64,000 nt of DNA, from NCBI GenBank assembly GCA_902728285.1, contig CACVBU010000854.1, positions 153,954-217,953 on the forward strand. The letters run 5' to 3'. The DNA is from Clytia hemisphaerica (lineage: Eukaryota; Cnidaria; Hydrozoa; Leptothecata; Clytiidae). The translations under genes and the position numbers were made by a program. Positions 16,002 through 59,175 of this stretch are shown in pieces (position 1 is the first letter of the stretch; each line of letters opens with the position of its first letter). The notes beneath the pieces are model-generated. The model saw only the letters and a program-made list of their open reading frames with translations, made no database searches and had not been told where the DNA came from.

Positions 16002-16424
16002 CATAGCGTCAGCCCCCTGCTAGTTAGGGAGGATTACACCCTACAAAAAGCCAAAAAAGGATGGGGGCTAAAGATGTTTCAAATATTAAGGGGAACTTAT
16101 GTACTTGGGGGGAGCTTAAATCTCATCATTCAGCCTGGGCGCTGAATACTTCATCTTAATGGTTGGCAATTACTCAAATTAAAGCTCACGAAGCTTAGAA
16201 ATTTTTACATTCGGCGCAATGTATTTATATTAAATTGACAAAATGTTTTATCTTAACCTTCAAACTGCAATACAATTTACATTGAATAACCCTTTTGTTG
16301 TGGAACAAATGGTCTAGGGTCGAAAGCCCCGGGGGCTACCAAAAACGTCATGAATCTTTGGGGGGACTTAAAACTCAGGGGGACCTAATTTTTGCCTGGG
16401 ACCTAAACCCAGACTGACGCTATG
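16002..16424. mobile_element. TIR element with repeated GGGGGACTTAA motif (family O)
   Basis: The ends catagcgtcag (16002-16012) and ctgacgctatg (16414-16424) are perfect inverted repeats. Inside, ggggaactta, ggggggagcttaaa, ggggggacttaaa, gggggacctaa and gggacctaaaccc are scattered about every 30-250 bp. No ORF is present. Confidence 0.6.
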
Positions 16425-16520
16425 CTGTCCAATTCTTGAGAATCGAAAATCATCAGGCTTTTCCAGGAAGAAATAAGTAGGAGAGTGACGAATCACTCAC
16501 GTGACAAAGACAAAAATTTT

Positions 16521-16566
16521 TACGAAATCGCGCACGTGAACCAGTTTTAGCGTGCGCGATTTCGTA
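16521..16566. repeat. Perfect 16-bp inverted repeat (hairpin)
   Basis: tacgaaatcgcgcacg and cgtgcgcgatttcgta are exact reverse complements separated by a 14-base loop. Related cgcgcacgt/gatcgcgcacgt phrases lie at about 16670. It is probably the core of a foldback element. Confidence 0.7.
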
Positions 16567-16817
16567 CAAAACGCCCTTAGATATTTTTCTATAGAATCAA
16601 AGTATAATTGACGCGTGCAATTTTTCGCTCACCATACGAGATTGACGAGCGTTTTACTAAGCGTGAGCGTGATCGCGCACGTCTTATTGAAAAGCATGAA
16701 TCATTTGGTCAAATATTGAGGCGAAAAAGTCATATATAGCGAGTTTATGTATGTGTGTTTTTTTGTGACGGAGACGGTTAGCTTCTGATTTGTGTAGATC
16801 ATGTCCAACTGAGGAAG

Positions 16818-17304
16818 CATAGATTATAGGTGTTTATCATACTTCTGCAATATGGCGGTTTGTGTATCACACATATGTAACGGCTGTACTTAAGTACTTT
16901 GTGGGTAAAAATGCGAGTTATTTCAAATCGTCGGATAGTGACTGATCACTATCCGAAGTCTTCAAAAGTCCAAATATGTAATTCACTTATGATTCAGACA
17001 AGGGCGTTGCTTAGCACTCTCGTTGCTTTATTCTTCTTCTTTAGCATAAAAACTCTTTAATCTTCAGTAAGCTGAATACAGAAACCAAGTTGTTGATAAC
17101 AAAATCCGCAATGGGCAAAGGTAATCTAAAAGATTACAACGCCCTCCAAACAACATCACGCACACTCCGCCGTCCTCAAAGGTCCAAATATGTAATTTAC
17201 TTATGATTCAGACAAGGGCGTGGATAAAAGACTCCAGCCGTTAGATGTGTGATATACAAACCGCCATATTGCAGGGGGGGGGTGATAATCTCCTATAATC
17301 TATT
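16818..17304. mobile_element. Foldback element with ~68-bp inverted arms
   Basis: The left arm from atagattatagg (16818) through gcaatatggcggtttgt to taacggctg is mirrored by the right arm ending at cctataatctat (17304), with small indels. Within it, tccaaatatgtaatt(c/t)acttatgattcag occurs as a direct repeat near 16970 and 17183. No coding capacity. Confidence 0.65.
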
Positions 17305-17423
17305 CGAACTGCAAATCATATTCCTTCTTCTCTTGGTCACATTATCCTTTGTATAGTAACGAATTCGTTGTCATAGAAAATGGACAGGGGTTAGTATAAT
17401 ACCCCTTTCAGACAACACAAAAA

Positions 17424-17673
17424 TACACGTTTTTTTTATTAGAACATCCAAAAATTTTGAAGTCTTATGATGCTCTTAACTTTTTGAGTTTTAATCCTAA
17501 AAATGTTCTTAACATGTTCTTAACATATTCTTATTTTCACCATTTTGTGAGTATTTGTGTTCATTTTCTTTAGAAATTGGCCATTTTAGAGTCTGCAAAG
17601 CCTTAAAATGTTGTTAAGTTGTTCTTAACATTTTGCCCATCGAAGCCTCATGTTCTTATATAAAAAAAGTGTA
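17424..17673. mobile_element. Family B MITE, copy 2
   Basis: tacacgttttttttattaga at the left and tataaaaaaagtgta at the right, with gttcttaacatgttcttaac inside, 250 bp, flanked by TA. A reversed partial copy follows at 17940-18037 (ends ataaaaaacgtgta). Confidence 0.75.
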
Positions 17674-19433: not shown

Positions 19434-19861
19434 CAGGGGGGGGTAGACAAATGGAGGGTATGAGTATGAGCCGCCCTTAAGGCATGGGCGGTTTTAGACC
19501 ATCTTGAACTTATCAGAGGAAGAGATTTGTAATTGAAATTTCATTGTTTTTTAACGAGCGTTGCACTCCTTTGCATTATTCCGACGTACTTGCTCTCCGC
19601 CATGGTGCTTAAGGGTACCTTTTTTGGACTTTCAAAGTCCCTCTAAAGGTTGGAATAATCAGAAAATCAAATTTTAGTCCTACTAATAAGGGTCACGAAA
19701 AAAGGAACATTTCAACTTTTTTGCCCCTAAAACATCGAAATTAGGTCAAATTATTCCCAATAAGAGTCGTAAAATTCAGTCCCTCCTTTTTAAGCCTGCT
19801 AATGGTCGAAAGTAGGACGGCACTTACTCGTCAACTCGCAACCCTAGTACCCACCCCCGGG
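19434..19861. mobile_element. Family K TIR element, fuller copy
   Basis: The left end cccagggggggg and right end ctagtacccacccccggg mirror the G-rich/C-rich ends of the 52.6-kb copy in reverse orientation (gagccgcccttaagg matches its cttaagggcggc). Internal motif variants agtccctctaaaggttgg and agtcctactaataagggtc recur. 17680-19430 otherwise holds only AT-rich sequence with further ttataagaac MITE scraps. Confidence 0.6.
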
Positions 19862-20048
19862 CTGAATTTCAAGAGATACAACCTCTATAACTTCGAGTGT
19901 CCTATCTCGACTATTACAGTTTTCACAATAAAATTCCAGCTTTAGAGGTTTCAGAGCAATAACCTGGCTAAAAACACATATTATTCCTTTAGATTAAATG
20001 ATGCATGATAAAGGAGATTGAGCTCGAGTTTATCAAGCTTAATAGTAG

Positions 20049-20416
20049 AGGCCCCCCAGCCGACCCTCAATTCACGCAATCACGCAATTTTTTCCCGAAA
20101 TTCACGCATTCACGCAAATTTTCCTCGAGTTTTACGCAATAACCCGATTTTTCAGGAAATCGGAAAATTTTCGGGAAAAATCGGGCAAACATTGGAAAAT
20201 CGGGAAAACTGCACATGATCGGTGGAAAAAAGGGAAAATTCACGTATTCACGCACAAAATAGCCCAGATTCACGCATTCACGCAATCGAGAAATGAATTT
20301 TCATGTTCACGCAAGTTTTTTCAATTCACGCATTCACGCATTTTTTTCCCAATTTTCACGCATTCACGCAACCGAAAATGCCCATTCACGTACTCACGCA
20401 AACCGCTGGGGGCCCC
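20049..20416. mobile_element. hAT-like MITE filled with TTCACGCA repeats (family F)
   Basis: The ends aggccccccagc and gctgggggcccc are inverted repeats, flanked by the direct repeat ATAGTAG (20042-20048 and 20417-20423). About fifteen (a/t)ttcacgca or tcacgcaa units are scattered inside around a central gaaaatcggg-rich block. A 7-8-bp duplication fits hAT-type insertion. Confidence 0.75.
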
Positions 20417-20916
20417 ATAGTAGGTTGTCCGCATCCCTGAAAAAGTGTTCTGTTCATGACAATAAAACATAACCTAAGAGGAGTTCTGGCAGAGTAGGTT
20501 TATAAGAAAAAATCCTTTCATCAATCGACATTATTCTTACATGAAAATTTTCCCATAATTTCATAAACCGCAGAAAGAGCTATAAACATGACATCTGTAT
20601 GTTGACATCATAACAAAACATATTGCTTCTCATCTATTTTTTTGGTCGTTGACATTCTAAAAACAGGACATAAAATGACACTGTTACGTAAGGGCTCCCC
20701 CCTGAAAATAAAAGGTTTCACTTTCGGTCCAATCAAATGTCAGTATAATTAAAGAGCTGTGTGTTGATTGGTTATGATAAACAATGGAAATGAGATTTAA
20801 TTTGTTGTTGAATAATAATCCAATTGTTAACAACGATGAAATATATAGCTAATCATACCGGCTATTGGCAACGTTGAGAAAAACTTCATCTTATTGTGTC
20901 TTTCATTGAAACCAAC

Positions 20917-20927: not shown

Positions 20928-21152
20928 CTCGTGGTTTTATTTTTCAAATATACAATCAACCCAAAAGAACATAAGGGTGTATTACAAAACGTGGTGCATT
21001 TTCACAAATTTTATTTCTTCTTAATTTCCACAAAATTTTTTTTTCTCCTGCTTTGATTACCTTTTGGAAAACTATTTTCCACTACAATAATCCAAATAGC
21101 TGAAAAAATTTGGAAAATTTTCAATTCTTATGGTGTGCTCTGGAAAGTTTTT

Positions 21153-21860
21153 ATGTCGGACGGACATTTGGTAAATCATAGATGGGTTCTGATGGAAACT
21201 TCAAATACCTGTAACTGCATTAGATCATAAGTTAACATCACTAACAGTTTCGAATTGTTCAATGGTTACTTCTGTCGCAATCAAGATTTCGCCGAAAATG
21301 CTGCTTCTTATTACAATGTCCGTCCGACATAATAAAAGACACCTACAATATTTTTTATAGAACGAAAAAAACATTGTGCATGTCTTACCACTACTCTGAG
21401 CTATCAACTAATAGGGCTTAAAATACGTCTTCAAACATCAATTTTTCTAAAGGAAACTCAAATCAATGCTATTTTCGATTAAATTTATAATGTCTGTCCG
21501 ACATAAATATCAAAATGCCATGTATGTTAGTCCTCTGACGGTCAATAGCTCGATTCAGGTATCACTTAAGCTCTTTTATTCATATCGAGTATTAACCCTT
21601 AACCCTTTTTACTTCATTTCGTCCTTAGTAAAGATTTTATCAGCTTTTCCTCTGTGTAAAAGTGTCTGTCCGACACTGAAAAAAAGAATAATTACACACT
21701 GAAATTTACTTCTGGTGCTGCAAATATTACTTTTGATATTAGTATGTCGCACTTTTGTAAATCCTAATGTTAAAAAATATGTATAAGTGTAGGCCCGCGT
21801 AACTCTTTAAACTAATCCTGCCCTTAAATTCAACAAAAAGTTTCTGTGTCCGTCCGACAT
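21153..21860. repeat. Left subterminal array: five 14-bp sites
   Basis: Sites at 21153, 21317, 21491, 21663 and 21847, with spacings of 164, 174, 172 and 184 bp. The first is in the ATGTCGG orientation and the others in the TGTCCG/TGTCTG orientation. The sites at 21491 and 21663 carry single substitutions (TGTCTG). They are probably transposase-binding sites. Confidence 0.85.
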
Positions 21861-22132
21861 AAAAACCTCTTTTGTATGTATGCTACTTATCAAATCAGAT
21901 ACAATGCAAATAAACTTTTCGAATATTATTTTCAAAACACACGTCACAAACTTGCGAAATTATTCTATTGCACGTGTAAAAACTCTTCCTTAAACGCGAG
22001 TGATGATATACTTTTTCGAACGTTTTTAAGTTTCGAACGTTCGAATAGTCTAAAATTGTCGTGATTTATTCGCAAGAATGATAGCATACATGATCATTTG
22101 AAGACAAACTGCAACGGAAATCGGTCACAAAA

Positions 22133-24489
22133 ATGGGGCGTCCAAGAAAAGCTAATCCGACAACAAATGCTGAACGATGTAAGAAATACAGAGAAAAAGA
22201 TCTAGAAGCTTCCAGAGCGAACGATACATTGAGGAAAAGATTGGCAAGGCTGAGAGCAAAACAAGATCTTGAAAACGTAAGGCGACGCTTAAAAAAGAAG
22301 CTGCAGCCAAAAGGGAGAGAAGACTACAAAAAAAATTATTACTTGAACAAAACGGTAAATTTTTTCTTTATTCTCAAATTCTTTGTTTTATCTTTTTTAA
22401 GTAAATAACTGAATGCAATAAGAGTCTCCCCCTTGGATACCAGGCTAGCAAAAACCAATTCGAAATCAAAATTGAAAATGAAGATTCCTCAGGAAGCAAG
22501 AATCTTTTTTCCATCTCGGATACAAAATAAACTTAACTATCTTGTACATTTAGAACAATCAAGTGCCAGCAACGTCAACGACACAACCGACACGACTCAA
22601 CCACCGCCACCGCCATCTTCACCGCCGCCATCCACCAACAATAATACAGTAGACCCTGAAACTCCAGCCAACCAGCCATCGACCTCATCTTCTTCCATTA
22701 ATTCGGCATTTAAGCACCGTAGCACAAAATATCGTTCTTTATCACAAGCTGAAAAGAGCCTGCCGCATAGCCCACGAAAAAGAAACGAGATTGTACAGCT
22801 GATGGCCTCAAAGCATTTGAAAATCAAGTTTAACAAAAAAGGAGGTCGCATGAAACAAACATTGCTGAAGGCTGAAGAGGAGTGGCTATTAACCTTCTTG
22901 GACCGTCCGGACATCTCCCGCCAAACGCCAGGCCGAAAGGACAATGTTTACATTGGGAAGGTTAATGGTAAAAGGGAGTATGCGCAAAAAAGATACCTTC
23001 AGTGGACAATAAGGGAGCTACTTGACATCGTGAATGGGAATAGCGAAGTTGAAGGAAGCCCGACGTTTCAGGAAGATTTCCAAAGGGATTTGACATTTAG
23101 ACAGCTGTACGATTTCCTGAAAAAGCGCAAACAGTACAAGTTTTCGAATCAAACTCCTCACGAATCCTGTACGTGTGAAATTTGTGAAAACATTCGCCTC
23201 CTCGTAACGGCTGTTAATAGGAAAATGAAAAACATCGACGCAAGATTACCATCAACCGTAAACGACCTGATAGCTGAATTTACATGCCAAAACGCCGGTG
23301 AAAATTGCATGAAAAGTCTTTGTGAAGACTGTCCAACAGTCAAAATCAACGAAGAAGATTTCTTGGATCAAGACTCCGCATCGGCAAAATCAACCAATGA
23401 CGACAACTCAGACAGTGAGACGGAGGAAGATGATGATATCACGTTTTATCAGTGGGTGAACGTAGATGGAAAAGCTGCCAAAACACAGAAGTCCGTCACT
23501 TTTGACAAAATCAGAGAAGTCATGGTCTCCAGAATTGAAGAACTGAAGCTTCATATTCACATCCGAAATGAACAATACATTGTTTATAGCAAACTAAAGG
23601 AGAATATGCCTGGGAATGCAATTCTCGTGCATGTGTGGATTATGCTGAGAGTTACGAAAACAAACAACAAGACGAGTGCCAATCGGCTTATTTTGGACAC
23701 ACTACTTTCAGCATTTTCACAGCCATCTTGTACATAAGGCGAAACAATGAGTTGATCCACGAAAATGTTGTTGTTATTTCAGAAGCAAATGATCATTCCA
23801 GAATTGCTGCCCATAGCTGTATTGTCAAAGTTGTCGATGTCGTGATAGCGAAACACCCTCATTTTAATCATTACGATTCAATCGACCTCCATATATGGAG
23901 TGACGGGTGCAGCAGCCAATTCCGCTCAAAATTTGTCTTTGCACTCACCTCACTGTTTCCCAAGCGTTTTAACGTAACCAGATATTATAACGAAAGGCAC
24001 CATGGCAAAGGACCAATGGATGGCCTTGGCGGATGCATCAAGAACCTCGTCTACCGAGCAGTGATGACTGGAAAAGAAATCATCAAAACCCCAGAAGAAT
24101 TCGCAAACTGCGCTCAAAAGCTGTCAAAAAATGTCAACTGCGTGTACATGCCAATCGAAGAGGTTATGGCAGAACCTGAAAACATCGAAAGAGCACCGTA
24201 CACGGCGGACATGCAAATTCTCAAAGTGCATATGGCGAAATTGCAGATTACATGGGCTGAGTTCCATTGTATGAAGCTTTATCGGATCGCGTCAGACAAG
24301 GAACCCTTTTATGTTCAATGGTATGAACGAGAGGATGGTACCACTCCTTGTGGCCATTTCGATACCGTTGATCAAGAGGAGATCGAAACCACGTGCGCCA
24401 AATGCATCATGGGGGAAAATGGTGACGGCTGGTTGAGATGCCCAAGTTGTAACCAGTGGTACCACGAAGGATGCTTTCTGTCCTCTTAA
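22133..24489 (+). pseudogene. DDE-like transposase with N-terminal basic domain and C-terminal PHD-type zinc finger, frameshifted
   Basis: Exon 1 (22133-22354) starts MGRPRKANPTTNAERCKKYR, a basic AT-hook-like/helical segment. A 138-bp intron (gt at 22355, tcag at 22489-22492) joins in phase to EARIFFPSRIQNKL. A proline/serine-rich spacer follows, then a Cys-rich section (HESCTCEIC..C). The frame is lost at 23636-23637, where GTGTG appears to have gained two bases. Reading resumes as VDYAESYENKQQDE, whose Asp is the likely first catalytic residue, followed by HIWSDGCSSQF and HGKGPMDGLGG, which I take as the other acidic motifs. The tail CAKC..WLRCPSCNQWYHEGCF is a PHD-type finger. HGKG-x2-DG-x-GG proteins are a known uncharacterised transposase-like family in invertebrates and fish (from memory). 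This copy cannot make the full protein without frameshifting. Confidence 0.8.
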
Positions 24490-24559
24490 ATACCTTATTT
24501 GACATTCATTTAGAGTTCTTTCTGTATTTCTATGTTTATGAAAATAGCTTTTAGTTTTT

Positions 24560-25277
24560 ATGTCGGACAGACATTTTGTAATTCGTTTCATATAGAATTT
24601 GGGTAGTTCATAATATAAAAAAACACAAGCAAATAGTTTCAATTCATGTCTCAAAGTTCCGGTGTGTTTTGTTTAGCCTGCAAAAATATTTAGTGAGAAT
24701 AACACCAACTTCTCTGATACTGATAGTTTTTATGTCGGACGGACATTATTCTTTGATTTGAATTTAAAAAAGGTCTGTTCACTTTCACAATTTGGAATTT
24801 TGAAGACAGTTTTCGAATATTAGGAAGATTGGTTAAAAACTCTAAAGGCAATAATTTAAGAACATCGATTTTGTTTGTCGCAAAATGTCCGTCCGACATG
24901 TCCGTCCGACATAAAAAAATGACTTGCCTGTCCAATCCAATAACTTTGATTAATCCATGGCGATAATAACCTAATTTCTTCCATCTTCTAAACAATATAC
25001 GAATCTTGATAAATCCCAAAAATTGAGTCGGTGCATCTATTTTTGAGATAGCAATGCAAGATTTCATCAAAAAGTAGAAAATCAGTGTTTCTATCGTGTC
25101 CGTCCGACATGAAAAACATTTTTGCAAAAAAAAAATATTCATGTGCTGATATTTCTGTTTTCTTTTTACTTTCATAAAATATAGCACAATGCAAAACTTT
25201 GGCCTTAGTTACAGGTCCTAGGTCCTTTGAGTTCACTTTTAATAGGTTGGCAAAGTATCGATTTGTCCGTCCGACAT
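24560..25277. repeat. Right subterminal array: six 14-bp sites
   Basis: Sites at 24560, 24732, 24886, 24899, 25097 and 25264; the pair at 24886/24899 overlaps by one base as a tandem doublet. Spacings are 172, 154, 13, 198 and 167 bp. The two inner sites face one way and the outer four the other. Confidence 0.85.
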
Positions 25278-25472
25278 AAAAACTAGTTTCGTAACAGACC
25301 CATAACAAGACTTGAAAAAATACCAAGGCTGGACCCTGGTAGAATTCAACTTTAACCTTTAAACTTCAATATCTGGAGAGGAGTCATTCAGCACAATTTT
25401 CAGCAGCTCAAAACACTGAAGAAAGTAGAAGATATAAAGTAAATCACAGTTCTATTGAAAGATTTGGCAAAA

Positions 25473-28381
25473 ATGCATCTTTTACCAATTTTAACATTCA
25501 CAATCATATGTACACTCAACCAGTTATCAACAGCTGTCAAACACAACGTTGGCAATCCTGACTTCTTACCCTTTTTCCCGTTTTTCCCGTACGGGAAAGG
25601 GTTCGATTACGTGCTTACAGATCCACCAAATTATGTGTTCGCCGAGGGAGATGAAGATTATGGAATATTTGATCATTACCTGAGTAAAGAGCTCCCGATT
25701 TTTCAAAATCCAAACACGCGGTGGATATTTGTAAGTTGATTCTTAGTTTTAAAATTTTGATTTTTTAAATTCACCTTTCGATAATATTGAAAGCCACTGT
25801 CAACGAGAAACTTTCATAAACGACGCTTTACCATTCGATACGTTCCCTTATTCGATGAAAATCTAATTTTGAGACAACAACTGTAAATTAAGTTGGCTCT
25901 CTGAATTAATTGACCTTCAATCGACAAAAAATATTTTCTTCAAAATAGAGAAATTTAGAGAGCATTTTATTTGTCTTGAGAGGGCAAATATTTAGTTCGA
26001 ATTATAGAAAGACTCGAATCCAAGAGGTTCGAATTAGAGAGAGTTGACTGTATGAAAAAAATAGAACATTGGACTGCAATGCTTAATAACATAAACAGAT
26101 ACCCTTATCTCGTCAAGTGACCTAGCAAGAGGTTTTTTAGGCTGTACTTCACCTATCTGTTCTCTGATATGTTTTGGTATAGGAGCTGTGTATTGTATAA
26201 AAAAAAACAAAAATACGGGTGTAACTCTCGGACGGGAACTTTTTACACGATACGCATCCCTTTTATCAAAATCAAACCTGGATAACACACAGCCTAGAGT
26301 TTTTAGCATATAAGGAAATTCTTAGGGAGCTCAAATATATCTAGATATGGTTAATGAAGATCATGCTACAGTTAGTGCCTTTATCCTAGACCCAGCTGAC
26401 ATATAACGTTTTTTCAACGTTTATCTAATATTCACAACGTCCAAATAATGTTAGATTAACGTTGAAAGAACGCTGTGTGCCAAGTGGGGAGGGTAGATGA
26501 CTGAAAACCAAATAACTGTTTACATTGGGAAGGGTAAAACCTAGTAACGTTTAAGTGGTTCTTAGTCCACTATTTTCACTTCATCAAAATCCTTCACATA
26601 AAAAACGTTTGTTGCTTCCTGCTTAAAATTTACGCGTTGGTTGTCAAATTATATCAAAATGGTTTGTCGTACGGCTGTTATTAAAATCCGGAAAAAGGAA
26701 AAACAATCTTATGCGACCGCAATTTTGTTAATGAGTTTTCTAACCATATTGGGAGATGAATAATAACAACGTTAAGTTCCTGGTTTTGTTTTTCTACGTT
26801 TGTCGACAATTTGTCGTAATTTGACCTTCTCGTCGACGTCGACGTCGACACCCGGAAAACTGACCCTTTTATGTACCGAAATATCCTAATAATGATTTAT
26901 AACTTTATATGGTATACGTTTCTCGATTTATCTTTTTTAAACTTTTACTGTGAAACAGGAACTTGAAACTTTTTCTAATTAAGATTTTGTACTTTGTCTG
27001 ATTTTAATATAACACAAATTTTGTTTTGGGATTTTTTACCATAAAAAATTCTAACTTCACTAGCTTTAGCAACGACCTATAATTAAACTCGTATTCATTT
27101 TTCCATAAATAATCCAACTGATGATTGCATGATTGATGCATGATTAAAACAAGCGGTTTTGGTCAAAGAAAAATTACTGTTTCTTAAAATGAATTAATTA
27201 TTTAATTATTCCACAGGTTGGAGTCAACGGTTATGTTTCATTCACCGAGCCTTGGTACAGCAACGGTGCAGATAAATTCCCTCAGGCTGGTCCTGGAATT
27301 AGTCTTTTCCAAACAGACCTTGTTTTCACGGATGCAAAAGATTCACATCTCTCTTTTAAAGAGTACGATGAAGAAGATAAAGACATTATGGAGCATGCGC
27401 GAAATGAATTGGAGGTGTACGCCAATCTAAAAGATTTCGATCCTAACCACGTGATTGTTGTCACGTGGCATAAAGCATCAAAGAAAGACAACAAAGGAAA
27501 TGTACGTCCATTTTAACCAGATTTTCTCTAACTAAAAAGTAGACCTTTGATCTCCCTTGTGGATTTCCCAATAATATGTACACGAGTGTATCCCATGCAT
27601 AACATAGTGTAATACTATGAATTTTGAAATTTCTGATTGGTCCACAATCAAGAATAAAAGACAAATCCTTTTTTGATTGATGCACAGACAGCCCCATTCT
27701 TGATTTCCAAAAGAAAAAAACTGTCTAACTATAAACCCTTATATCTGAAATTTTGAAGTTAGCCTTTAGGCCCTCAGCTTTACCCTGTTACCCTGTTACC
27801 TTGCCTCTACTGTTTTGACGTAGTTCGTGTTTGAATGCAACTGTTAAAGAGATCGTGAGAAAAGAAACCGTTTCCAATGTTTCCAGTGTGTCCATACTAT
27901 CGTAAAACATATTGGACAAATTGAGTACTTGGAATTCTAACCGATTTCTCTTTCCTTTGTTCTTTTAGGTCACTTTCCAACTAGTACTTGCTTCAGATGG
28001 TTTCAACACCTATGCCATTTTGAATTACGAAGATATTACGATTAGCCTTCAGCGAAAAGATTTCTGTCCTGTAACCGTAAGTCAATTTTTTTAATGCACC
28101 CTAGGTATGGTTACCCGCCCTTTTTTTATCACAGTTTTTAGAAATTTGGTACCCTGTGATAGGACTATTCGACGTAATTCAATTTTTAACACGATATTGT
28201 TCGCTCTAAAATATGATGACTCGCATCGAGTCCCCCCCCCGCTTATTAATTTATTGGAAAATGTTTTTAAAAGTTCCCTTTTTTGTCCCAATTCTGCTGT
28301 ATTAGCCTCCTTTTAAAAAATTTTCCACCCAGGACATTTTTATTCCAATCCCCCCGCTTATTAAGTTTTGAGATTTTTTCC

Positions 28382-28422
<41 letters not shown>

Positions 28423-30743
28423 CTTATTCCAATCTCCCCGGCTATTGTGTACCCGAGGGTGCTCCATGAGGATATCATATTCAAACATTTCGTTCAGGCA
28501 GCATCGAAGAACTGCTTTCAGGGTTTTATATATAGCTCCTCAGTGGATCATAATAGTGAATAATTTCAATTTCTTCTTTTAATAACACAGATTGGTTGGC
28601 AAGAAGACCTCCAACGTTATGTCGAACATGAAAACATGCAACTCACCCCAGCCTTCCCGTATCGACCAATCAGAATGTCTAAGAAATCAAACATCGGTTT
28701 CCCTGGAAAATGGATTTATAAACTCTTTGGAACTAGTAAGTCACTATGATAGGTTTTCAGCAAATTATAATATTTTCCATACTTGTATAGGGTTTTTCTT
28801 ATAAGCTTTTTTCAGTCCCTTGTTTCTGTATAGACCGATTCTTGTGACAACATTTTCACCCACGATCAGCCATTTTTCTAAGAAATGTTTCTACCAATAT
28901 ACAGGATGATTTCCCTAACTGGATTTAGCCCAATCGGTCTATACAGTTGTCTGTGACTCTCACTAATTCGAGCCTGATAATCTGACTGACGGAGAGACTC
29001 GGAAAATAGAAAAAAAAACCCTGTGTCACAGACCCGCTGGGAACCCAGCCCCACTGGAAAATGTTTCCGTTCCGGTTGGGAATTACCCTGGAATTTCAGC
29101 CCCACTGGGAAATTGACTTTCATTCCATCCCCATTTGAAATTCAATGTATATAAATTGCACTACAGAACCATCCCCACTGGATTTTTTTACCTTGGAACA
29201 ATAGAATATCTATCCCCTGTATAATTTCGATAGAAATTTTAATCCCCACTGAGGAAAAAAGTTCCATCGGGATGTGAGAAAGCAGGAAAGAGAAGAAGCT
29301 TGAGTATGAGATTAGAGATGAATTAGCAAAAAACTCTAAATAAAAGATTGCTAGATAGATTCCTTTTTTAAAGGATGTAACTCAGAACTATCAATTCAGA
29401 AAAATGTTTAAACAAGAAATTTTATCATTTCTTCTTTGTAGAAATTGCAGAAGAAAACAAACCATCGCCAGTGCCAACCCGACCAGCAGATCTCAAACAT
29501 CTTCCCGCCCAATGCCCTGGAAACGACTTCTGCCAAAACACTAAAAACGTATTAAATGTATGGCCCGGTCATTCCGCCTTCTATGTAGTATGTCCACCCG
29601 GTGGCGCACCCGTATGTATGCCATGTGCGGAAGGGACCGCCTTTAGTCCGGAATGCAGGACGTGCGTTCATACAAGTCAACTTGGACAGCCAAAGGATAA
29701 ACGTAAGTCAAGTTTTATAAATCTTTATCTTAATCTGCTCTTTAAGAGCAAAAGAAGTTGTTTTTCTGGATGATATTATTTTAAACACAGGGGGTGTTCG
29801 CAGACCAATTGGGACCCCTTCCCACTGGAAAAATTGGCTAAAATATCGTCCCCAGTGGGAAGTAATCAAATAATCAAATCCTCACTGCCAAACACTGTGC
29901 TATTTTCATACCCACTGAATGTTTTGGCTCTAAAACAATGAAATTCAAAACCCCAGCCATATAAAACATTGGAATATCACAATGCCCATACCCATACCCC
30001 CACTGGCTTAAAGATCCTACCGGGTCTGTGAGAAGAAGATGTGAAGGAGATGTTGTATCTTTTGTGCCATCATATCTCATTAGCCTAAAGCCCAAATGCC
30101 TCAAACTGTCTTCTTGAAAACCACCTAAACTCACAATATTAATTGTTCACATTTTTCTTAATCTTTTCTACAGTTTGTCCACAACCATCAAAGAAGATGG
30201 AAGATCGAGTCAAACAAACTGCAAGGTGCAACCATGCTGATGGTAAGACACTATTCTTATTTTCATAGAGGCTCTCTTACGTCCTGCAAATAGTTTTTCT
30301 TCAGTCTCGAATACTTGAGGCAGGGAAATTTCTGTTTTCAAAGGAAAATCTCTTCATTTTCGAATAAAAGTCTCTGGATTTTCAAAGGAAAATCTCTGTA
30401 TTTTACATCATACATACATACATCAAAAGTTCAAAAAGCTTTTTTTCCAAAGACTTGACTTATTATCCATTAAATTTCAACTAACTTTTTTGTCACTTTA
30501 GCACTACGTCACTGTACCATGCGTGAGAACCAATTACATGACGGTAAGAAGAAAACACCATACACCACAAGCTACCGAAACCATAATGACGTCAATGGAG
30601 CGTCATATTATCTTTGTGCCGGCGCTGTCGGTAGTTTCTGTATGCCTTGCCCCGCAGGAACCGTTTTTCAACAGTATGAGCATGATAAGAATAACGGCGC
30701 ATGCGTACATAAAAGTCCAAAGACGCATGCTGAATGGGTTTAG
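25473..30743 (+). CDS. Secreted NIDO-domain protein with two peritrophin-like Cys modules, seven exons, 455 aa
   Basis: Exons 25473-25730, 27217-27501, 27969-28076, 28591-28735, 29442-29702, 30174-30242 and 30502-30743; all introns GT..AG and all phases agree, totalling 456 codons with TAG at 30741. Residues 1-20 are a signal peptide (MHLLPILTFTIICTLNQLST). Residues about 55-265 form a NIDO domain as found in nidogen, mucin-4 and related matrix proteins: VGVNGYVSFTEPW, DPNHVIVVTWHKA, VTFQLVLASDGFNTYAILNY and a terminal NIGFPGKWIYKLFG. Two short modules follow, CPGNDFC..FYVVCPPGG..CMPCAEGTAF..C and C..YYLCAGAVGSFCMPCPAGTVF..C, whose YY/FYxxC and CPxGTxF patterns recall chitin-binding type-2 (CBM14) domains. 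Likely an extracellular matrix or mucus/cuticle protein. The ATG follows gcaaaa; its upstream in-frame codons are not Met. Introns 3, 4 and 5 carry inverted-repeat elements. Confidence 0.9.
26391..26488. mobile_element. Small foldback MITE in NIDO intron 1
   Basis: cccagctgacatataacgtt..tcaacgtttatctaa pairs with ttagattaacgttgaaagaa..gtgtgccaagtggg, so nearly the whole 98 bp forms one hairpin around aacgtt motifs. Related caacgttgaaacg phrases occur at 36650. Confidence 0.55.
28096..28462. mobile_element. TIR element in NIDO intron 3 with CCCCCGCTTATT motif and a 38-C run
   Basis: The left end gcaccctaggtatggttacc and right end gtacccgagggtgc are imperfect inverted repeats. cccccgcttatt occurs three times plus a ccccggctatt variant, and one motif copy has expanded to 38 consecutive C at 28384-28421. 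Poly-G/poly-P readings of this stretch are artefacts. Confidence 0.6.
29022..29280. mobile_element. Family D MITE in NIDO intron 4
   Basis: The ends tgtgtcacagacccgctggg and ccatcgggatgtgaga are inverted repeats. Inside, ccccactgg or a close variant recurs about every 30-50 bp. Other copies at 29793, 40137 and 41699, fragments at 31652 and 37462. Confidence 0.7.
29793..30033. mobile_element. Family D MITE in NIDO intron 5
   Basis: gtgttcgcagaccaattggg at the left and cctaccgggtctgtgaga at the right, with cccactgg repeated internally. Adjacent introns of one gene thus carry separate insertions of the same family. Confidence 0.7.
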
Positions 30744-33435: not shown

Positions 33436-33519
33436 CTCTCCGTCTTTGGTGTTTCCCACGTGGTCAGATAACGTTATCAATATCTCTATGAATTTCCCAA
33501 GTTCAGTACAATGGAACTA

Positions 33520-36200: not shown

Positions 36201-36205
36201 TTAGT

Positions 36206-38754: not shown

Positions 38755-39002
38755 ATTGGGCTCTTCCAGAAAAATTCATTCATGGGGGTGGAGGATATAT
38801 TATTTTTTCAATGATCTACCACTGGACATTTCGATTTTTTCACCCCCTGGACACACGTTTTACCCCTGGACACTAAAGATTTACCCCCTGGACATAGCAA
38901 ATTCACCCCATGGGCATGGCAGTGTTTCAGGATTTCTTCAATACCCCTGGACAATATATCTTCCACCCCCTATGAACGGTTTTTTCTGGAATTGAACCCA
39001 TT
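38755..39002. mobile_element. Family E MITE with CCCCTGGACA motif, copy 1
   Basis: attgggctcttccagaaaaa at the left and ttttttctggaattgaaccc at the right are inverted repeats. Inside, cccctggaca or a close variant occurs six times. Copies with the same ends but other internal motifs are at about 50906 and 58847. Confidence 0.7.
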
Positions 39003-45041: not shown

Positions 45042-46424
45042 TTAGAGCATCTTTTTTTTTTCTTTTTTTTTTTGTTTTGTTGTTACCGGAGCCAGTCCCG
45101 GCACGGGTCTTTTGTGTTACAAAAGTTAATTGTCTTTAAATAAATAAATAAAAATGAAAATATTTTGTAAATATCACACCTCACAACCTCACTCACGGAA
45201 AGACCACAAGACTTCGTTCAGCTTTTGATCTTTCAGTGCTACTTGGTCTGGGGTAAATGTGCGACTCGCACGTTCACCTCTCAGACAAGCAACAACTGAT
45301 CGGATCAAGATGAAGGAAATCTTGCGTCGAATCCCGGCGATCACGACACTCTTCATGCAATTTTGCTTCTCTGAGATTTTCTCAGAAAGTCTATTTAAAA
45401 TATCGAACATTCAGGGAGTTCCGCCAGTAGCACCAAAAATCATGGTGTGTGAAGTCCCTCTCTCAATTTCCTGGATTCGTTGGTTATAAGCTCTTTTCTT
45501 CTGCTTCTCAAAGCTTGCTAATGTAGTTGAAACGGATTTTTCACGATAACTCGGAGCTAGAAGGTTTGAAACCTTAACATCAAAGAATGCTCTCTAAAAC
45601 CGTGTCCAAAAACCGTTACCACTAACATCGGCCCTTGCCTCATTACCACAAATAGCTGATTTCTTAAAATCAGCACTATCAGTTCTTGTGAGTTCGAATA
45701 ATGCGGGTTCAATTTTCACATCATGTGCAACTTCTTTCAACATCATCGCTAACGCATCACGGATGTTGTTGTGACAATGAATGACGTAACCACCGAGGTG
45801 ACAAGAAAGTGCATGTTCGATGGAGAAGGATGCTTGACATGCACATTTGACCGGTAGTCTCCTCATCTGCCAACCGTACCGCATGAAAATCGCATCAAAG
45901 AATTTTTGCTTGTTCAATATGAAATTCTCTTCCCTCAAAGGAAGAGTCGTCAGCCACGATGAAGCACCCGGACATTGAGCAATTTCCAGTGTTTTGCGCT
46001 CAATGGATGGTAAAGAAGGCTCAATTTCCCAAAGGGTTTTCTCATATTCCTTTAGTCGTTGGTTTTTTCTTGATTTGATTATCGAAATCGAGCTTGTATA
46101 ATCAACGGGCTCTTCACATTGTTTTACGACACGATCTCGTAATTCGGCCGTCGCACTTAGGCTCGTTTCGTGTTGGAATTTCGCTTCTTCTATCACATTT
46201 ATGATACCAAGTCCCCCGAATTTCGTCGGCAAAGCCATCAAGCAACGTTCAGTATCATTGCATTGTCTTCCATCGCAGAAGGCGGGAATCAAGTGGAATC
46301 TGATGACGTTTTCGAGTGGTATCAGGTATTCGTCGAGGTCTTTGACCGTACGGAATATGTAGTTGAATTTTTGGCGATATCCAACTACGAATGACACATA
46401 CGCAGCTTGTGGTTAGAGCATCTT
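45042..46424. mobile_element. 5'-truncated LINE inserted in the Penelope-like copy, with 12-bp target duplication
   Basis: TTAGAGCATCTT at 45042-45053 and 46413-46424 brackets an insertion of 45054-46412. The plus strand begins with T-rich sequence (45054-45083), i.e. an A-rich tail on the minus strand, as expected for target-primed reverse transcription. The 5' end is truncated at 46412. Confidence 0.85.
45189..46397 (-). pseudogene. LINE polyprotein C-terminus: RT tail and restriction-like endonuclease region, with stops
   Basis: One minus-strand frame runs from 46397 to 45189 with two in-frame stops, TAG at about 45594 (after GNGFWTRF) and TGA near 45411. The N-terminal part has PTKFGGLGIINV and SSWLTTLPLREENF, the thumb/C-terminal region of a reverse transcriptase. 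CACQASFSIEHALSCHLGGY followed by HNNIRD fits the CCHC motif of restriction-like endonuclease LINEs. ARADVSGNGFW..AFFDVKV could be the PD-(D/E)xK core, and SVVACLRGERAS lies near the end. The clade (R2/NeSL-like or related) is inferred. Dead copy. Confidence 0.75.
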
Positions 46425-46564
46425 CAGTTTTTTTGAATAACAAAGACGTTTAACAATTATATTTAACGACGCTAGAACGGCATTACAATGACTTCTTCAG
46501 TTTTTGACGTGGAACATCTGGTACACTTCTTTCGCGTATCCGTGGCAGTCTTTGTTGAGACCTG

Positions 46565-47152
46565 ATGGAGCCAGAGTTTGGAGTCTGCACATCCATTTAT
46601 CTTCGGCTCGTTCTCTTTCTGCGGAGGATGAAAAGTCACTTTCTAGGAAAAACAATCGCCAACAAAATCGTGCGAAATGATATCTTGGAAAGACCACCAC
46701 GTCAAAACACCACGAAACCGTGTGGTAAATGCAAGCTATGCCCGAACATTGTCACCCAGTCGGAAATCACTCACAATGGTATCACTAAACGTGTAACCAA
46801 TGGTGGTAGCTGCAAAACGAAGAACGTTGTGTATGCAGCCAGATGCAAGATCCATGACTAGTTGTACGTTGGTCACACAGGAGAAGCCTTGTTAACGCGT
46901 TTTTCAAAGCACCGCTACGACATTGGAAAGAGACCGAAAAATTCAGAGTTGGCAGAACATTTCCATCGCGACCACTCCTTTGCTGACCTTGAGGTGATGA
47001 TCCTAGAAAGTGACTTTTCATCCTCCGCAGAAAGAGAACGAGCCGAAGATAAATGGATGTACAGACTCCAAACTCTGGCTCCATCAGGTCTCAACAAAGA
47101 CTGCCACGGATACGCGAAAGAAGTGTACCAGATGTTCCACGTCAAAAACTGA
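46565..47152 (+). pseudogene. Penelope-like C-terminal fragment: Cys linker and GIY-YIG endonuclease, one amber stop
   Basis: From about 46680 the frame reads PPRQNTTKPCGKCKLCPNI, a Cys linker, then KNVVYAARCKIHD, TAG at 46859-46861, and LYVGHTGEALLTRFSKHRYD, SELAEHFHRDH, and a terminal ERERAEDKWMYRLQTLAPSG. GIY (VVY..LYVG), Arg/His and Glu positions fit the Penelope-like GIY-YIG domain. The sequence before about 46648 is the inverted copy, not part of this protein. The reverse transcriptase is absent. Confidence 0.8.
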
Positions 47153-48351
47153 AGAAGTCATTGTAATGCCGTTCTAGCGTCGTTAAATATAATTGTTAAA
47201 CGTCTTTGTTATTCAAAAAAACTGAAGATGCTCTAAGAGAGAGCGAAATATTTTAAACCTGTATGTTTTTATTTTGAGTTTTACTTCGTCCGCAATGCTG
47301 AATTGAATTGATTAAGGAGGTAGAAAAATCGCGAAATTCACAACATTTACTTTCGCGAATTTGAGGAAAAAAATTTTTTCGCGAGTATAAACTTTCGCGA
47401 ATCGTAGGATAAAAAAGAGAATTTTCGAATAAAAATTGCCTTAAAAGTGAAAAATATTCTCTAAATCCGCTAAAGACGGTTTGCTCTTCCTTCGACTTTA
47501 AAAAGGCATTAAAGGATAATAATATGCCGAAAATTTGATATTTATTATGAGTTCGAGGTTTTATAGATTTCTAACTTTTTTGAGAATTTTTCGCGAGCAT
47601 AAATTTTCGCGAATTGCCCTGTTTACAATTTTCAAAGACATTTGCTTTCGCGAAAAAGGCCGAAATTCGCGAAAATCGCGTAAGTTTCTGCTCGCGAAAG
47701 TTTGTACGCCTAAAGTATACCCTAATATACCAAAATATACGCATTTTTTCTGTAAAGAATCCCTGAAATATTTTTGATAATGATCAGCGTAATAAAAGTC
47801 ATTTATTGACTCGCGCAGTTTTTTGTTTTTTTTGAAATTTCAATTTTTTAAACTGGTCTTAATAAGTTTGTACTTCTATGCTAATGATTGTGTAGCGCCG
47901 TGGGTAAGAGCACTGAATGAAGAAATAATTCAGCAAAAAGAATTTGTCTAGGTTCAAATCCACTGTTAAACTTACGGATGATGATTCAGATAAGATTATA
48001 CCGATCATACACAGTTCATCAAAATTGAGTTTAGGTATTCCCAATGCGACTGTATATCAATTTGAGCATGTTAATGCGCATGCGTAATCTAAAACCGCAA
48101 GTGGTTAATATATGGAAATATATAAGCAAAACGAAATGCGGAGGGTTGGTCGGTCGGGGTGGAGGTGTCCTATAGTAACTCAATAATACATCCAAGTCAC
48201 TTAAAGAATTGAATTTCCTTAGTCTATTTCCATTAAAAAAGAAAGATTTTTGTTGAAGTTTCTTCTATTTTTATTGAAATTCTATATTTTAAGAGTGTCA
48301 TGAAAAAGAGTGTCCGGGACATAGCGCATCGCTGCCTAAGGGGTGATTTAG

Positions 48352-49859: not shown

Positions 49860-50133
49860 TACACGTTTTTTTTATATAAGAACAAACTGTATAAGAACAT
49901 AAGGCTTCGATACCAAAATGTTAAGAACAAACTTAAGAACATAAAATGTTAAGAACAAAGTTAAGAACATTTTAAGGCTTTAAAACACCGGATTTCTTGG
50001 AATAATAGATAACAATATTCACAAAATGAAAAAACAAGAATATGTTAAGGACATTTTTAGGCTTAATACTTAAAAAGTTAAGAAGATCTGAAGGCTTCAA
50101 AAATTTTGGTTGTACTCATTGAAAAAACGTGTA
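49860..50133. mobile_element. Family B MITE, copy 3 (reverse orientation)
   Basis: tacacgttttttttatataa and ttgaaaaaacgtgta ends with repeated gttaagaaca phrases; reverse orientation relative to the copy at 17424. 50134-50905 shows no supportable gene. Confidence 0.7.
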
Positions 50134-50905: not shown

Positions 50906-51154
50906 TGAATATGGGGGGAGGGGGTGAAAAAATAACATTTTATGGAAATTTACCCCCCCCCCTGGACTTTGTGACTTTTGACCCCCGGAAAAGCATCAGT
51001 TGACCCCCTGAACATTCAAAATTACCCTCAAACAGAGCAAAGTTACCCAAAAATAGAGCAAGTTTACCCCCGGACATTTTGTAGGTTTTTTACTACCCCC
51101 GGAAACTATATCCTCCCCCCCCCAGGTACGGACATTTTCTGGAAGAGCCCAATA
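50906..51154. mobile_element. Family E MITE, copy 2, with ACCCCCGGA motif
   Basis: The right end attttctggaagagcccaat matches family E. The interior repeats (t/g)accccc(t/g)ga and cccccggaca; the left end is G-rich and degraded. Confidence 0.55.
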
Positions 51155-52610: not shown

Positions 52611-52890
52611 TAGACCCGGGGGGGGGTACTAGGGTTGCAAGCTGACGGAGGGGGGTGCCGCCCGACTTTCGACCCTCGGACTCCTACCGGGACTAAAAAG
52701 GAGAAAACAAAGGAAAATTTTGGGAATTTTACGACCCTTACCGGGGCAAATTTTCCTCTTTTTCCTACCCTTAGTGGGACTGAAATTTGATTTTCTGGTT
52801 TTTCTGACCCTTAGCGGGACTTTGGAAATCCAAAAAAGGTACTCTTAAGGGCGGCACATACCGTACCCTCCGTTTGCCTAAATAAACCCC
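52611..52890. mobile_element. Family K TIR element with GACCCTTAGCGGGACT motif
   Basis: cccgggggggggtactaggg at the left and gggcggcacataccgtaccc..aaaccccccc at the right. Internal motif variants: gactcctaccgggacta, gacccttaccgggg, cccttagtgggactg, gacccttagcgggactt. 52890-53328 holds nothing else recognised. Confidence 0.65.
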
Positions 52891-53332
52891 CCCTCCCCGT
52901 TAAGTTAAGATAACGTCAATTTTCTGACGGAAACACCCCAAGAAATACGGAATCTGAAATCTGTGTGTTGCTATAAAAAGACAAACATAAGATTGAAATT
53001 ACTTTTTCGGACAAGAAATATCCATATATAGAGAAAGATCTGTTGTAATTTTATATAAAACACCTTTAAAGCTTCCCATGTTAAATACTTCTGGCAGGAA
53101 GCATTTTATAAATTTCATAATTAGATTTCTAGAACGCTTTATTTTGAATAGAAAGGAAATCTTTCTGAATTCGAGATCTCTTTCGAATACTGTCCTGACG
53201 TAGTAATAAACACAAGAAAGCCTGAGCGGCGTAAAGGCCCAGCAGTGTTGGCACTGTCGCCATACAACAGGAGCGAATTTTTTCAATGTATAGACTCGAG
53301 TCGGGCGAGTAATAAAGATTTGATTACTTTAA

Positions 53333-56414: not shown

Positions 56415-56502
56415 ATTCAGCATCTAGCTTGTTATTGTCTGTTCTACCTTGTCTGAAATAACACGATTGTTTCAAAATTAAAAGAAGTTGAGAATTTTCT
56501 TG

Positions 56503-56757
56503 AAACCTTTCTAGTAGTAAATTTTCTTCCTCTTTTGACAAAAGTCTTACCCTTTGAGAGACTTTTTTACAATTAGTTCTCTCAAAATCAAAAAAAAAAT
56601 CCTAAAAATCGTGAATTCTCCGACCCTTAGAGAGACTTATTTAAAACTTGCTGATTTTTCCGACCCTTAGAGAGACTTTGAAAGATGAAAAGCCCGACCT
56701 TTAGAGCACGCACATACCAAGGACCCATTTTTGCCTAAGTAGCCCCCCCCCCCAGGT
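56503..56757. mobile_element. Family K element with GACCCTTAGAGAGACTT motif
   Basis: ccgacccttagagagactt occurs twice almost identically (about 56618 and 56660) with weaker copies before and after. The right end gcacataccaaggacccatt..ccccccccccc matches the 52.6-kb copy. Confidence 0.6.
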
Positions 56758-57118
56758 TTTTTCTAAATCACTATCTTTTCAATCTTGTTCCTAGATCAAA
56801 ATGTTGGTCTATTACCATAACAACCAAATGATCAAAATAAATAAAAGCGTAATTTCCAATTTTGTGGCTCACAGTTTTCAGCCACAATCTGAAAATATTA
56901 TCATTTTCTTATGTCTAGTTCCGCGAAAAATTACGATGCGAAGTGCACTTTTTTAATGACTTTATTGCAACATTAATGAGATCATTAGACTCTCAGTCGC
57001 CTAATTAGTAATTAATTAAATACCAACTAGCGCCATACAATTAAAAATTATTTCTTCCATACCATAATTACAACACTGGCATCTCATTGATTGAAATGAA
57101 TCAAAAATCAACACTTAA

Positions 57119-57247
57119 GGCCGGTCTCCACTGCGATCGTTACGTCATATCGCACCAATGGAGTTGCTTCATTTTTCTTTTGACCAATAGCGTGGAAGCT
57201 TTGCTCGAAGAAGAGCGATCGCAGAGCGCGCAAGTGGAGACCGGCCT
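57119..57247. mobile_element. 129-bp MITE with GGCCGGTCTCCACT ends
   Basis: ggccggtctccactgcg and cgcaagtggagaccggcct are inverted repeats, flanked by TTAA (57115-57118 and 57248-57251), equally readable as a TTA duplication of PIF/Harbinger type. Confidence 0.7.
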
Positions 57248-57304
57248 TTAAGGACAACCATCCTCATGGTTCTCTTGTTACGAGTTTCGATCAATGATTT
57301 ATCA

Positions 57305-57440
57305 TAGCCCGAAGGGCTAGATCCTCGGCCTTTATCGAAAAGTGAAGCAAGTTTTGGTAGGATATCCTACCAAAGAAATCACATGACAACAAGCAATTTC
57401 ACTGGTTTGAGAGATGCAAAATAGCGTTTGCCGCCTACTT
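57305..57440. repeat. Family C MITE, half copy
   Basis: agcccgaagggctag followed by ggtaggatatcctacc and atcacatgacaa matches 14786-14996 in reverse; no second end found. Confidence 0.55.
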
Positions 57441-57633
57441 TTTTTATCTCGCGCTCCGAAAACAATTAAAATGCTAGCTCCTATCGGCACGAAATTTAAA
57501 AAGTCAAATTTTGTTCCTCTTTTTTCAAAATTTTAATTCTTTTTTTCTTGACAGGCTTCAGAACAGTAATTTCTTAATAACTTTTGAACTGAAATCAGAG
57601 TCTCAGATTGTTCTTAAAAGATGTTGAACCAAA

Positions 57634-58604
57634 TACACTCTTTTTTATAAAAATCAGTAAATTTTTGAAGAGGCTCGGCTGTTCTTGTTCTTTTTTGGCA
57701 CTCTGGGAGTCAAATTGTTCTAATCCTGTTCTTATGTAAGGGTTTGAATTGAAGCATTCTAGACTTTATACCAAGTTTTTCTACTTTAGCCCCTTAACTT
57801 CTTGAAATTTACCAGTTCCAGTAGTCCAGGAAAAAATGGCCAAAAACCCACCTTGAAAGGAACTTTGTGAACCATGGTTTTTTAGCTTCCTATGTACCTA
57901 TAGATCACGGTTTGGGATGGTTTTCAGGCTGAATAGGTGATAAAACCCTAAAATTTGACCTAAAACGGTTGGAAGTTCTTTGAAAAGTGCAATTTTTCGC
58001 TGACTCAGCACTTTTTGTGAGATTTGTAAGATCTATAAATGGAATTATCTCGAGATCTACAATTTGTAACCCAACAAACCATACCATTTTCTTGAAGTAC
58101 TCTTTCAGGGCTATCCAGCGAAAGTGTCAGAAATGCCTAAAAATTTGAAGGAAAAATGCTGACGTCAGCAGAAAAAGGGCTAAAACGGCCATTTTGACGA
58201 CTTTGGCGGGCCCTAGCTCCGCAACGGATGTTCAAAACCAAGCATTTGACCCCATTTTCTTGCTCAGCACTTCGAGCTCTATCAGATTAGCACAAAAGTT
58301 TGTTCATTTGAGCACTTTGAAAAATCGACTAGTAAAGGGGGGACCCTTGATTGAGCAAAAGACCCCGTTTTAGGTCAAATTTTAGGGTTTTATCACCTAT
58401 TCAGCCTGAAAACCATCCCAAACCGTGATCTATAGGTACATAGGAAGCTAAAAAACCATGGTTCACAAAGTTCCGTTCAAGGTGGGTTTTTGGCCATTTT
58501 TTCCTGGACTACAGGCTCAGTATTGTTTTTTTAATTCTTCTTAAATTGTTCTTATTTATTGGCGATTTTAGGCCTCATTGTTCCTATAAAAGAATAAGAG
58601 TGTA
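57634..58604. mobile_element. Family B-like MITE interrupted by a foldback element
   Basis: tacactcttttttataaaaa at the left and cctataaaagaataagagtg..ta at the right are imperfect inverted repeats of the family B type. The foldback at 57821-58512 lies inside it. Confidence 0.55.
57821..58512. mobile_element. 692-bp foldback element with 148-bp arms, one mismatch
   Basis: 57821-57968 and 58365-58512 are reverse complements over 148 bp, differing at one base (ccttgaaagg versus ccttgaacgg). The loop is about 396 bp, with no coding sequence. Near-identity implies recent arrival or arm-to-arm correction. I see no obvious target duplication. Confidence 0.9.
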
Positions 58605-58846
58605 GAGCCTCGTATTCTTATAGAGAACGTGTACACAGAACAGCTTTGGTTCCGTAAATGTAGACTTCTTTCCTCCAATATCAAAATATTCTCACGATTT
58701 TTCACATCACGTTTTAAGCATAACTCATCAACGTCAGGCTGAATTAATCACGATGTTTCTTTCGATATATGATTTTACTGATAAAAAGAAAATTTTGAAT
58801 GGAAGCCAAATACACCCTTTTTTACAAGAAAACTTTTTAGTGTAAT

Positions 58847-59175
58847 AATGGGCTTTTCCAGAAAAAATTTTACCCCTACTGTTGAGGATATCAATTATTC
58901 AGAAGTACCCTGGAAATCCTACTTTATTAGTAAAGACCATATGAATATCCACTCTTAAAAATATGCTCAACCCCCTGGATATCCTCTCTTATAAAGATGC
59001 TTACCCCTGGATATCGTATTTTTTACTTGAAAAGACACTTTACCCCCTGGATATCCGCTCCCTTGTAGATATTTAACCCCCTGGATATACACTTTTGAAC
59101 GAAAATTGTTAAACCACTGGATATCCGATATCCTCAACAGGGAGGGGGCACGGACTATTTCTGGAAAGGCCCAAT
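58847..59175. mobile_element. Family E MITE with CCCCCTGGATATCC motif, copy 3
   Basis: aatgggcttttccagaaaaa and actatttctggaaaggccca ends; inside, ccctggatatcc or a close variant occurs six times, where copy 1 has CCCCTGGACA. A gatatcctcaac..gttgaggatatc pair lies just inside the ends. 59176-60128 shows no other feature. Confidence 0.75.

Follow-up and report, generated by a model that had tools for sequence, protein, structure and literature searches.

Introduction

In CACTA elements such as En/Spm and soybean Tgm, conserved terminal inverted repeats (TIRs) go with subterminal motifs that vary, as do their presumed binding proteins, and coevolution of the repeats with a TNPA-like protein has been proposed (PMC2613891). 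The Ac transposase has been reported to bind a repeated AAACGG motif cooperatively, and short Ds elements keep few of these repeats (PMC3260210). In Galileo, a member of the P superfamily, the families have about 40 terminal bp in common, while the mapped THAP site went undetected in subfamilies K and N (PMC3688188). Here we describe family E, a family of miniature inverted-repeat transposable elements (MITEs) in the hydrozoan Clytia hemisphaerica, in which two subfamilies differ at the same position of all seven units of a repeated interior motif. It was found in a stretch of 64,000 nucleotides, hereafter the window, at positions 153,954 to 217,953 of contig CACVBU010000854.1 (G000:C585:153954-217953 in our searches of the 417-Mb, 951-contig genome); coordinates below are those of the window.

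Family E resembles CACTA elements (PMC2613891) in its conserved TIRs, in a repeated motif private to each subfamily and in a 3-bp target-site duplication (TSD). It differs from them in its GGGC ends, in motifs that fill the whole 170-330-bp non-coding interior rather than the flanks of a coding element, in units that share a single orientation, and in an in-place switch with homologous spacers. Multiple short repeats are common to E and to the hAT elements Ac/Ds (PMC3260210), whereas Ac/Ds has one hexamer per family, a different TIR and a TSD unlike the 3 bp of E. As in Galileo, terminal bases are common to families while the site differs, and sites are repeated; Galileo, in contrast, is coding and has other ends, and its three mapped sites sit in a long TIR (about 1.2 kb). 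The coral CMITEs (PMC2872659) are likewise animal MITEs with a remarkable interior, but they are about 100 bp long, have a TTAA TSD, and keep their interior better than their TIRs. The first-pass annotation of this DNA knew of no described class with such behaviour; it did not consider subterminal arrays of binding sites, which are a described class and show much of it. Among the titles and abstracts listed by our open-access searches, none described lockstep motif-array switching in animal MITEs, which is not proof that it is unpublished, and we regard the lockstep array difference between subfamilies as a notable variant of a known arrangement.

Results

Family E is a MITE family with subfamilies

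Two E elements lie on the forward strand of the window. One, of subfamily E1 (motif ACCCC(C)TGGACA), spans 38758-38999 between ATT flanks (38755-38757 and 39000-39002), with a TIR pair and copies elsewhere in the genome. Its motif units occupy 38819-38953, starting at 38819, 38844, 38863, 38885 and 38944 with at most one mismatch, and CCCCTGGACA is exact at the last four. The other, of subfamily E2 (motif ACCCCCTGGATATCC; locus L009), is a 323-bp element at 58850-59172 with the TSD AAT (58847-58849 and 59173-59175). Its units occupy 58908-59124, starting at 58908, 58973, 59005, 59045, 59079 and 59115; CCCCCTGGATATCC is exact at 58971 and 59043, and more units with one mismatch are present in both elements. 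The two have the same outer ends, bearing out the earlier observation that the copies at 38755 and 58847 combine the same ends with different interior motifs (four exact copies of CCCCTGGACA against two of CCCCCTGGATATCC).

The outer TIR, GGGCYYTTCCAG, has 2731 exact matches in the genome (1388 forward, 1343 reverse; control 0). From 128 loci we extracted 110 distinct paired elements in two ways. The query-based copies come from the best 40 candidates scored for each of E1 and E2. The TIR-only sample came from the first part, in contig order, of 100 places out of the 2731 TIR matches; its 79 loci, less 12 unpaired TIRs, 5 duplicates and one false pair (L101), gave 61 elements. Equal 3-bp flanks were present in 93 of the 110 elements (AAT 46, ATT 43, TTT 2, AAA 1, CTT 1), the CTT case, L023, being probably a wrong end call. 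Most elements measure 168-368 bp, L061 reaching 567 bp with a nested insert; they were judged non-coding from their size rather than from an open reading frame (ORF) search on the copies. With TIRs, a TSD of constant length, short elements and a high copy number, E is a MITE family.

Several known groups do not match E in the features compared. PIF/Harbinger elements (Tourist-like) have a 3-bp TSD of TWA type; the length agrees with that of E, but AAT or ATT makes up 89 of the 93 matched TSDs. The GGGC...GCCC ends of E are not CACTA-type termini. The coral CMITEs do not fit either, the TSD of E being AAT/ATT and not TTAA, and its shared TIR with a varied interior being the opposite pattern. 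Nor does ATon, described with an AT dinucleotide target (PMC3422177).

Among the scored best matches, the E1 query (993 candidates, 40 scored) gave 39 non-self copies 79-87% identical across most of the element, and the E2 query (929 candidates) 39 others at 87-99%; because these copies are best matches, those of E2 represent a recent burst. The first-pass annotation had treated interiors as varying from copy to copy, and had allowed that interiors shared genome-wide would make these ordinary MITE subfamilies. As sampled, they are shared: the best 40 of 929 to 2433 candidates for E1, E2 and the two K types described below cover most of the element. When elements were assigned with the motif units largely masked in the reference consensus, 39 fell into E1, 39 into E2, 22 into E3 and 9 into E4 (L101 left out); in the TIR-only sample the figures were 20, 10, 22 and 9. 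There are thus at least four subfamilies, each with one interior common to its copies. The motif is ACCCC(C)CGGACA in E3 and ACCCCCNTGGAATTCC in E4, and L117, with TGGATTTCC, may be a fifth type. Eleven of the 12 unpaired TIRs start with a recognisable E interior, the other (L080) being degenerate. Copy counts are slightly inflated, since L004 and L008 have common flanks, L009 and L010 may represent a single locus assembled twice, and the pairs L051/L052 and L072/L073 are near-duplicates.

The E1 and E3 arrays differ in lockstep

The arrays of E1 and E3 each consist of seven units, which occupy homologous positions between alignable spacers. We compared them in 55 elements (38 E1 and 17 E3) of 200-330 bp out of 61, the set used also for the tree, CpG and distance analyses. 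Between the consensus sequences we counted differences at 32 of 91 sites in the spacers, 12 of 90 in the ends and, leaving the switch position aside, 2 of 70 in the motif. At the position before GGACA (AGACA in E3 unit 5), T in E1 corresponds to C in E3 in all seven units. T-to-C differences account for 3 of 40 spacer positions and for all 7 switch positions (Fisher P 1.9e-6). Restricting the comparison to the TIR-only elements gave 7/7 switch, 3/70 motif and 34/91 spacer differences. When the motifs were masked and a tree was built from the spacers, one branch (support 100/100, length 0.22) set off all 38 E1 copies; across it, L044 was the only element with a T majority, and it is a degenerate copy of E3. 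Spacers diverge by 0.190 within E1, 0.266 within E3 and 0.426 between them, and ends (45 + 45 bp) by 0.106, 0.155 and 0.211.

Most individual units follow their subfamily. By masked assignment, which covers only units with intact neighbouring letters, E1 had T in 177 units, C in none and another base in one, and E3 had C in 60 and T in 10. In aligned columns, one C was found in 243 E1 units. The C majority in E3 runs from 0.62 to 0.94 over the seven switch columns, so the E3 copies are not uniform. Among the 34 TIR-only elements with at least three scorable units, 19 were all-T and 9 all-C. Genome-wide, 3934 neighbouring E pairs included 1528 TT and 1712 CC (reversed-pattern controls 16, 12 and 3, respectively), and mixed pairs numbered 694 against 1963 expected under independence. 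These variable-gap counts may straddle a unit of the opposite type; among the first 100 pairs listed for each family, a reading by eye found 17 mixed in E and 8 mixed in family C (below). The pair counts show linkage by descent, and the case for coordinated change rests on the consensus comparison. The earlier description of motifs uniform in a copy and different between copies was thus right in that the motif sets differ, across all units of E1 and E3, and wrong in that the pattern belongs to subfamilies, not copies.

Motif columns change more slowly than spacers in three subfamilies, with substitution rates of 0.047 vs 0.146 in E1, 0.105 vs 0.157 in E3 and 0.066 vs 0.139 in E4 (L044 was still counted in E1 in this run, and eight E4 copies were used). 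Such slower columns would be expected if constraint acts while lineages transpose and inserted copies then decay neutrally.

The arrays also change in length. L068 carries a duplicated unit plus spacer, and 13 of 46 interior deletions have at least 6 bp of microhomology, where 300 random placements gave 2.4 such deletions on average and 7 at most. Both ends fall in different units in 28 of the 46, within the random range (mean 19.6, maximum 29). This analysis was made without L023, L024, L025, L038, L061 and L117, and its deletions are not independent, several having been inherited by sister copies. Similar spacer pairs were found in E2 (spacers 2 and 3, z 4.7; 2 and 6, z 2.9) and E3 (4 and 5, z 2.6), and none exceeded z 2.5 in E1 or E4. 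Of the repeated local copying once proposed for these elements, this much stands: arrays change length through local duplication or deletion at motifs. Homogenisation inside copies is not supported for E1, E2 or E3 (see Discussion). Since turnover of this kind carries spacers along with units, it does not explain the E1/E3 switch, in which spacer order is kept.

Families C and K follow the same plan

A family C element (TIR GGCCCCC..AGC) lies on the reverse strand at 20050-20416. Its motif, read on that strand, is GCGTGAA in 11 of 13 GCGTGAN units, the others being one GCGTGAT and one GCGTGAG. The C copy nested in L061 has GCGTGAT in 12 of 12 units and GCGTGAA in none. Compared by eye, the two copies have partly similar spacers, and at two copies the flanks share 7 bases. 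Genome-wide C pairs number 8493 AA (control 697) and 6140 TT (control 54) among 16369 in all (control 777); by our own arithmetic about 1736 are mixed, against about 8015 expected. Same-type linkage is strong in both E and C.

Family K proved looser than the first-pass annotation had it. Exact K-related motifs were GACCCTTAGCGGGACT once (52806), GACCCTTAGAGAGACTT twice (56622, 56662), AGTCCCTCTAAAGGTTGG once (19636) and GACCCTGTCAG twice (12310, 12400). Two types hold up, each retrieving its own set of similar copies. The 52.6-kb type, with units near GACCCTTACCGGGACT and approximate ends at 52615-52899 (+), has genome matches and no 8-bp TSD at this copy; its query gave 2433 candidates, and 39 non-self copies among the best 40 were 80-88% identical. 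The 56.5-kb type, with units GACCCTTAGAGAGACTT, is placed at 56533-56757 (+), the span covered by genome matches, its left end not fixed; 39 non-self copies among the best 40 of 2232 candidates were 85-97% identical. An element on the reverse strand at 19608-19861 (approximate ends) aligns by eye with the 52.6-kb type as a diverged copy. At 12.3 kb the K unit pattern had no match, so the motif there is not placed in K. Of 12 K loci, 6 had an exact 8-bp TSD, whereas 132 mismatched pairings gave none. The TSD of hAT elements is 8 bp long, and K and C are at most candidates for that superfamily. With a different TSD length (3 vs 8 bp) and different ends, E and K have only the plan in common, in agreement with the earlier view that one plan recurs across unrelated families.

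Further motif clusters and neighbouring features

We searched the window for places where a 10-mer occurs four or more times in 300 bp (at most one mismatch, non-overlapping). Twenty merged loci emerged, and neither of two dinucleotide-preserving shuffles produced any; the repeated motifs are more than chance. Plain tandem arrays account for a few of the clusters, for example at 43.1-44.1 kb, where 43128-44127 is a tandem array of units of about 49 bp with 78-82% matches. A degenerate E3-like element on the forward strand (50912-51120, approximate ends) was recognised by eye from units near ACCCCCGGA and E3-type spacers. The supposed element at 28.1 kb has its repeated motif (CCCCGCTTATT three times, CCCCGGCTATT once; 28237-28446, +) and is a motif cluster alone, element ends not being established. 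At 13601-13781 (+), GGCACGT recurs ten times at irregular spacing, with no TIR in a 10-bp seed scan. Like this one at 13.6 kb, clusters at 20.1, 29.0, 41.0 and 47.3 kb and elsewhere lie outside the places reported in the first-pass annotation. Irregularly spaced copies of a single motif (TTAAGAACAT, or its complement) are clustered at 3003-3380, 17470-17650 and 49891-50078, possibly a further family with the same plan.

Just upstream of the E2 element, 57818-58515 holds an inverted repeat of 151 bp (99% complementary). Near-identical copies of the 56.5-kb K type (97%) and of E2 (99%) stand about 1.6 kb apart at G000:C467:7608-9519, against 2.3 kb in the window (56530-59175); that stretch is possibly a second haplotype or a duplication of this part of the window. 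Repeats of TTTTTATGTCGGACGGACAT in both orientations (21148-25285) surround ORFs at 22094-24489, the last part of which ends, by eye, in a PHD-like Cys/His pattern; the three ORFs had no Pfam match, and a possible reading of the region is an autonomous DNA transposon. A perfect 236-bp inverted repeat (46413-47236) surrounds ORFs that resemble GIY-YIG/Penelope by eye. For the ORF at 32131-33516, Pfam gave a GIY-YIG match slightly under the cut-off (E 4e-4). Other Pfam matches in the window were 7tm_3 and NIDO, with CBM_14 below its cut-off, in keeping with animal DNA.

Discussion

Each E subfamily has an ordinary MITE genealogy, its one interior inherited by the copies. We propose that the interior motif array is a set of predicted binding sites for a DNA-binding domain needed in mobilisation. 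The putative binding protein, a transposase or an accessory protein, would be supplied in trans, and the array may act as subterminal repeats do in the CACTA and Ac elements of plants, though we do not assign E to any of the groups cited as precedents. The switch of the whole array would then have followed a change in the specificity of this protein, and the outer TIR, kept across subfamilies, may be the cleavage signal. Protein binding, a specificity change before the switch and the role of the TIR are steps that we infer from the repeats. By analogy with CACTA and Ac, we put the probability that the arrays are protein-binding sites for mobilisation, re-tuned as a set, at about 0.5.

Several observations weigh against this proposal. 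The E2 motif is not slower than its spacers (0.040 vs 0.032) in what is a young burst sampled by similarity. T occurs in 19 of 109 E3 units in aligned columns, and 6 of the 34 TIR-only elements scored are mixed. The switch position is a CpG in E3, and among the copies transitions at CpG sites have roughly double the rate of those elsewhere, or a still higher one. Lockstep with homologous spacers is measured for one subfamily pair. No clear homology links the spacers of E2 with those of E4, or either set with those of E1, so the motif differences of E2 and E4 are not necessarily in-place switches, and the family C switch rests on two copies and genome counts. We found no binding protein or autonomous element for E, no transposase search having been run; in the TIR-only sample, no autonomous partner was recognised by eye in the first 420 bases beyond the 12 unpaired TIRs, which were not put through an ORF or Pfam search.

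An account without function would see a neutral founder effect, in which tandem duplication in a master element built a functionless motif and each subfamily is a bottleneck. The interiors common to a subfamily are what it expects, and it is favoured by the duplicated unit of L068, by the excess of microhomology deletions, by the likeness of E2 spacers 2 and 3 and by the spacer-like decay of the E2 motif. It leaves unexplained the 2 of 70 motif changes beside 32 of 91 in spacers and a switch in 7 of 7 homologous units with spacer order kept, and deletions with both ends in different units are little above random. We consider it unlikely, though not negligible. Slightly less credible to us is a functional array with another role, bound by a host factor or a chromatin or replication protein, or by a host repressor evaded by switching. 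Conservation and lockstep fit any multi-site binding protein, and the same plan in unrelated groups with 3-bp and 8-bp TSDs could indicate a common host factor. The motifs, however, are private to subfamilies of one TIR family and not common to the host's elements, and evasion would be expected to lead to sites being lost more than to every site being converted.

Two further accounts concern how the motifs change. Mutation bias would make the E1/E3 difference the CpG decay of an E3-type array, CCGGACA turning into CTGGACA. CpG transitions are indeed raised among copies (0.129 vs 0.065 at non-CpG sites in E1, 0.170 vs 0.075 in E3, 0.087 vs 0.034 in E2), and C to T is the change observed in E3 copies. 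Yet decay in E3 yields CpA too, G to A standing at 22 of 110, including unit 5 with its consensus already CAGACA, whereas the E1 units are TpG in 7 of 7, for which our rough estimate of chance is about 3e-4. Moreover, the CpG observed/expected ratio of the window is 0.91, the family C difference is one of A and T, and T stands before GGA in E2 and E4 as well, suggesting that the T state is older. These points weaken CpG decay as a full account of the switch, and we hold it to be quite improbable. Still more remote is the mechanism favoured by the first-pass annotation, homogenisation or repeated local copying inside each inserted copy, to which we give hardly any credence. A first run on E1 did find an excess of substitutions common to units of one copy (20 vs 4.6, P 0.0002), but with L044 moved to E3 and poorly aligned units screened out this fell to 4 vs 1.9 (permutation test, P 0.10), and E3 (P 0.42) and E2 (P 0.94) had no excess. 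Homogenisation should make units far more alike within a copy than between copies; mean unit distance was 0.088 both within and between the 38 E1 copies and 0.210 within against 0.224 between the 17 E3 copies (E1 vs E3, 0.241). Copy-internal homogenisation is thus not supported in E1, E2 or E3.

Under our proposal of re-tuned binding sites, a broader reading may be ventured, tentatively and with less confidence than the proposal itself: unrelated MITE families would be built largely of a multi-copy recognition motif, and their arrays re-tuned in lockstep (seven E sites between T and C, nearly all C-family sites between A and T) while spacers and TIRs keep the ancestry, leaving a record of binding-specificity switches. 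Coevolution of transposon sites and proteins has been proposed by comparing rather distant elements (PMC2613891). E1 and E3 show the difference in place at each individual site, and their homologous spacers serve as an internal yardstick. Should the binding protein be found, a multi-site change of specificity without loss of function would become testable on thousands of copies.

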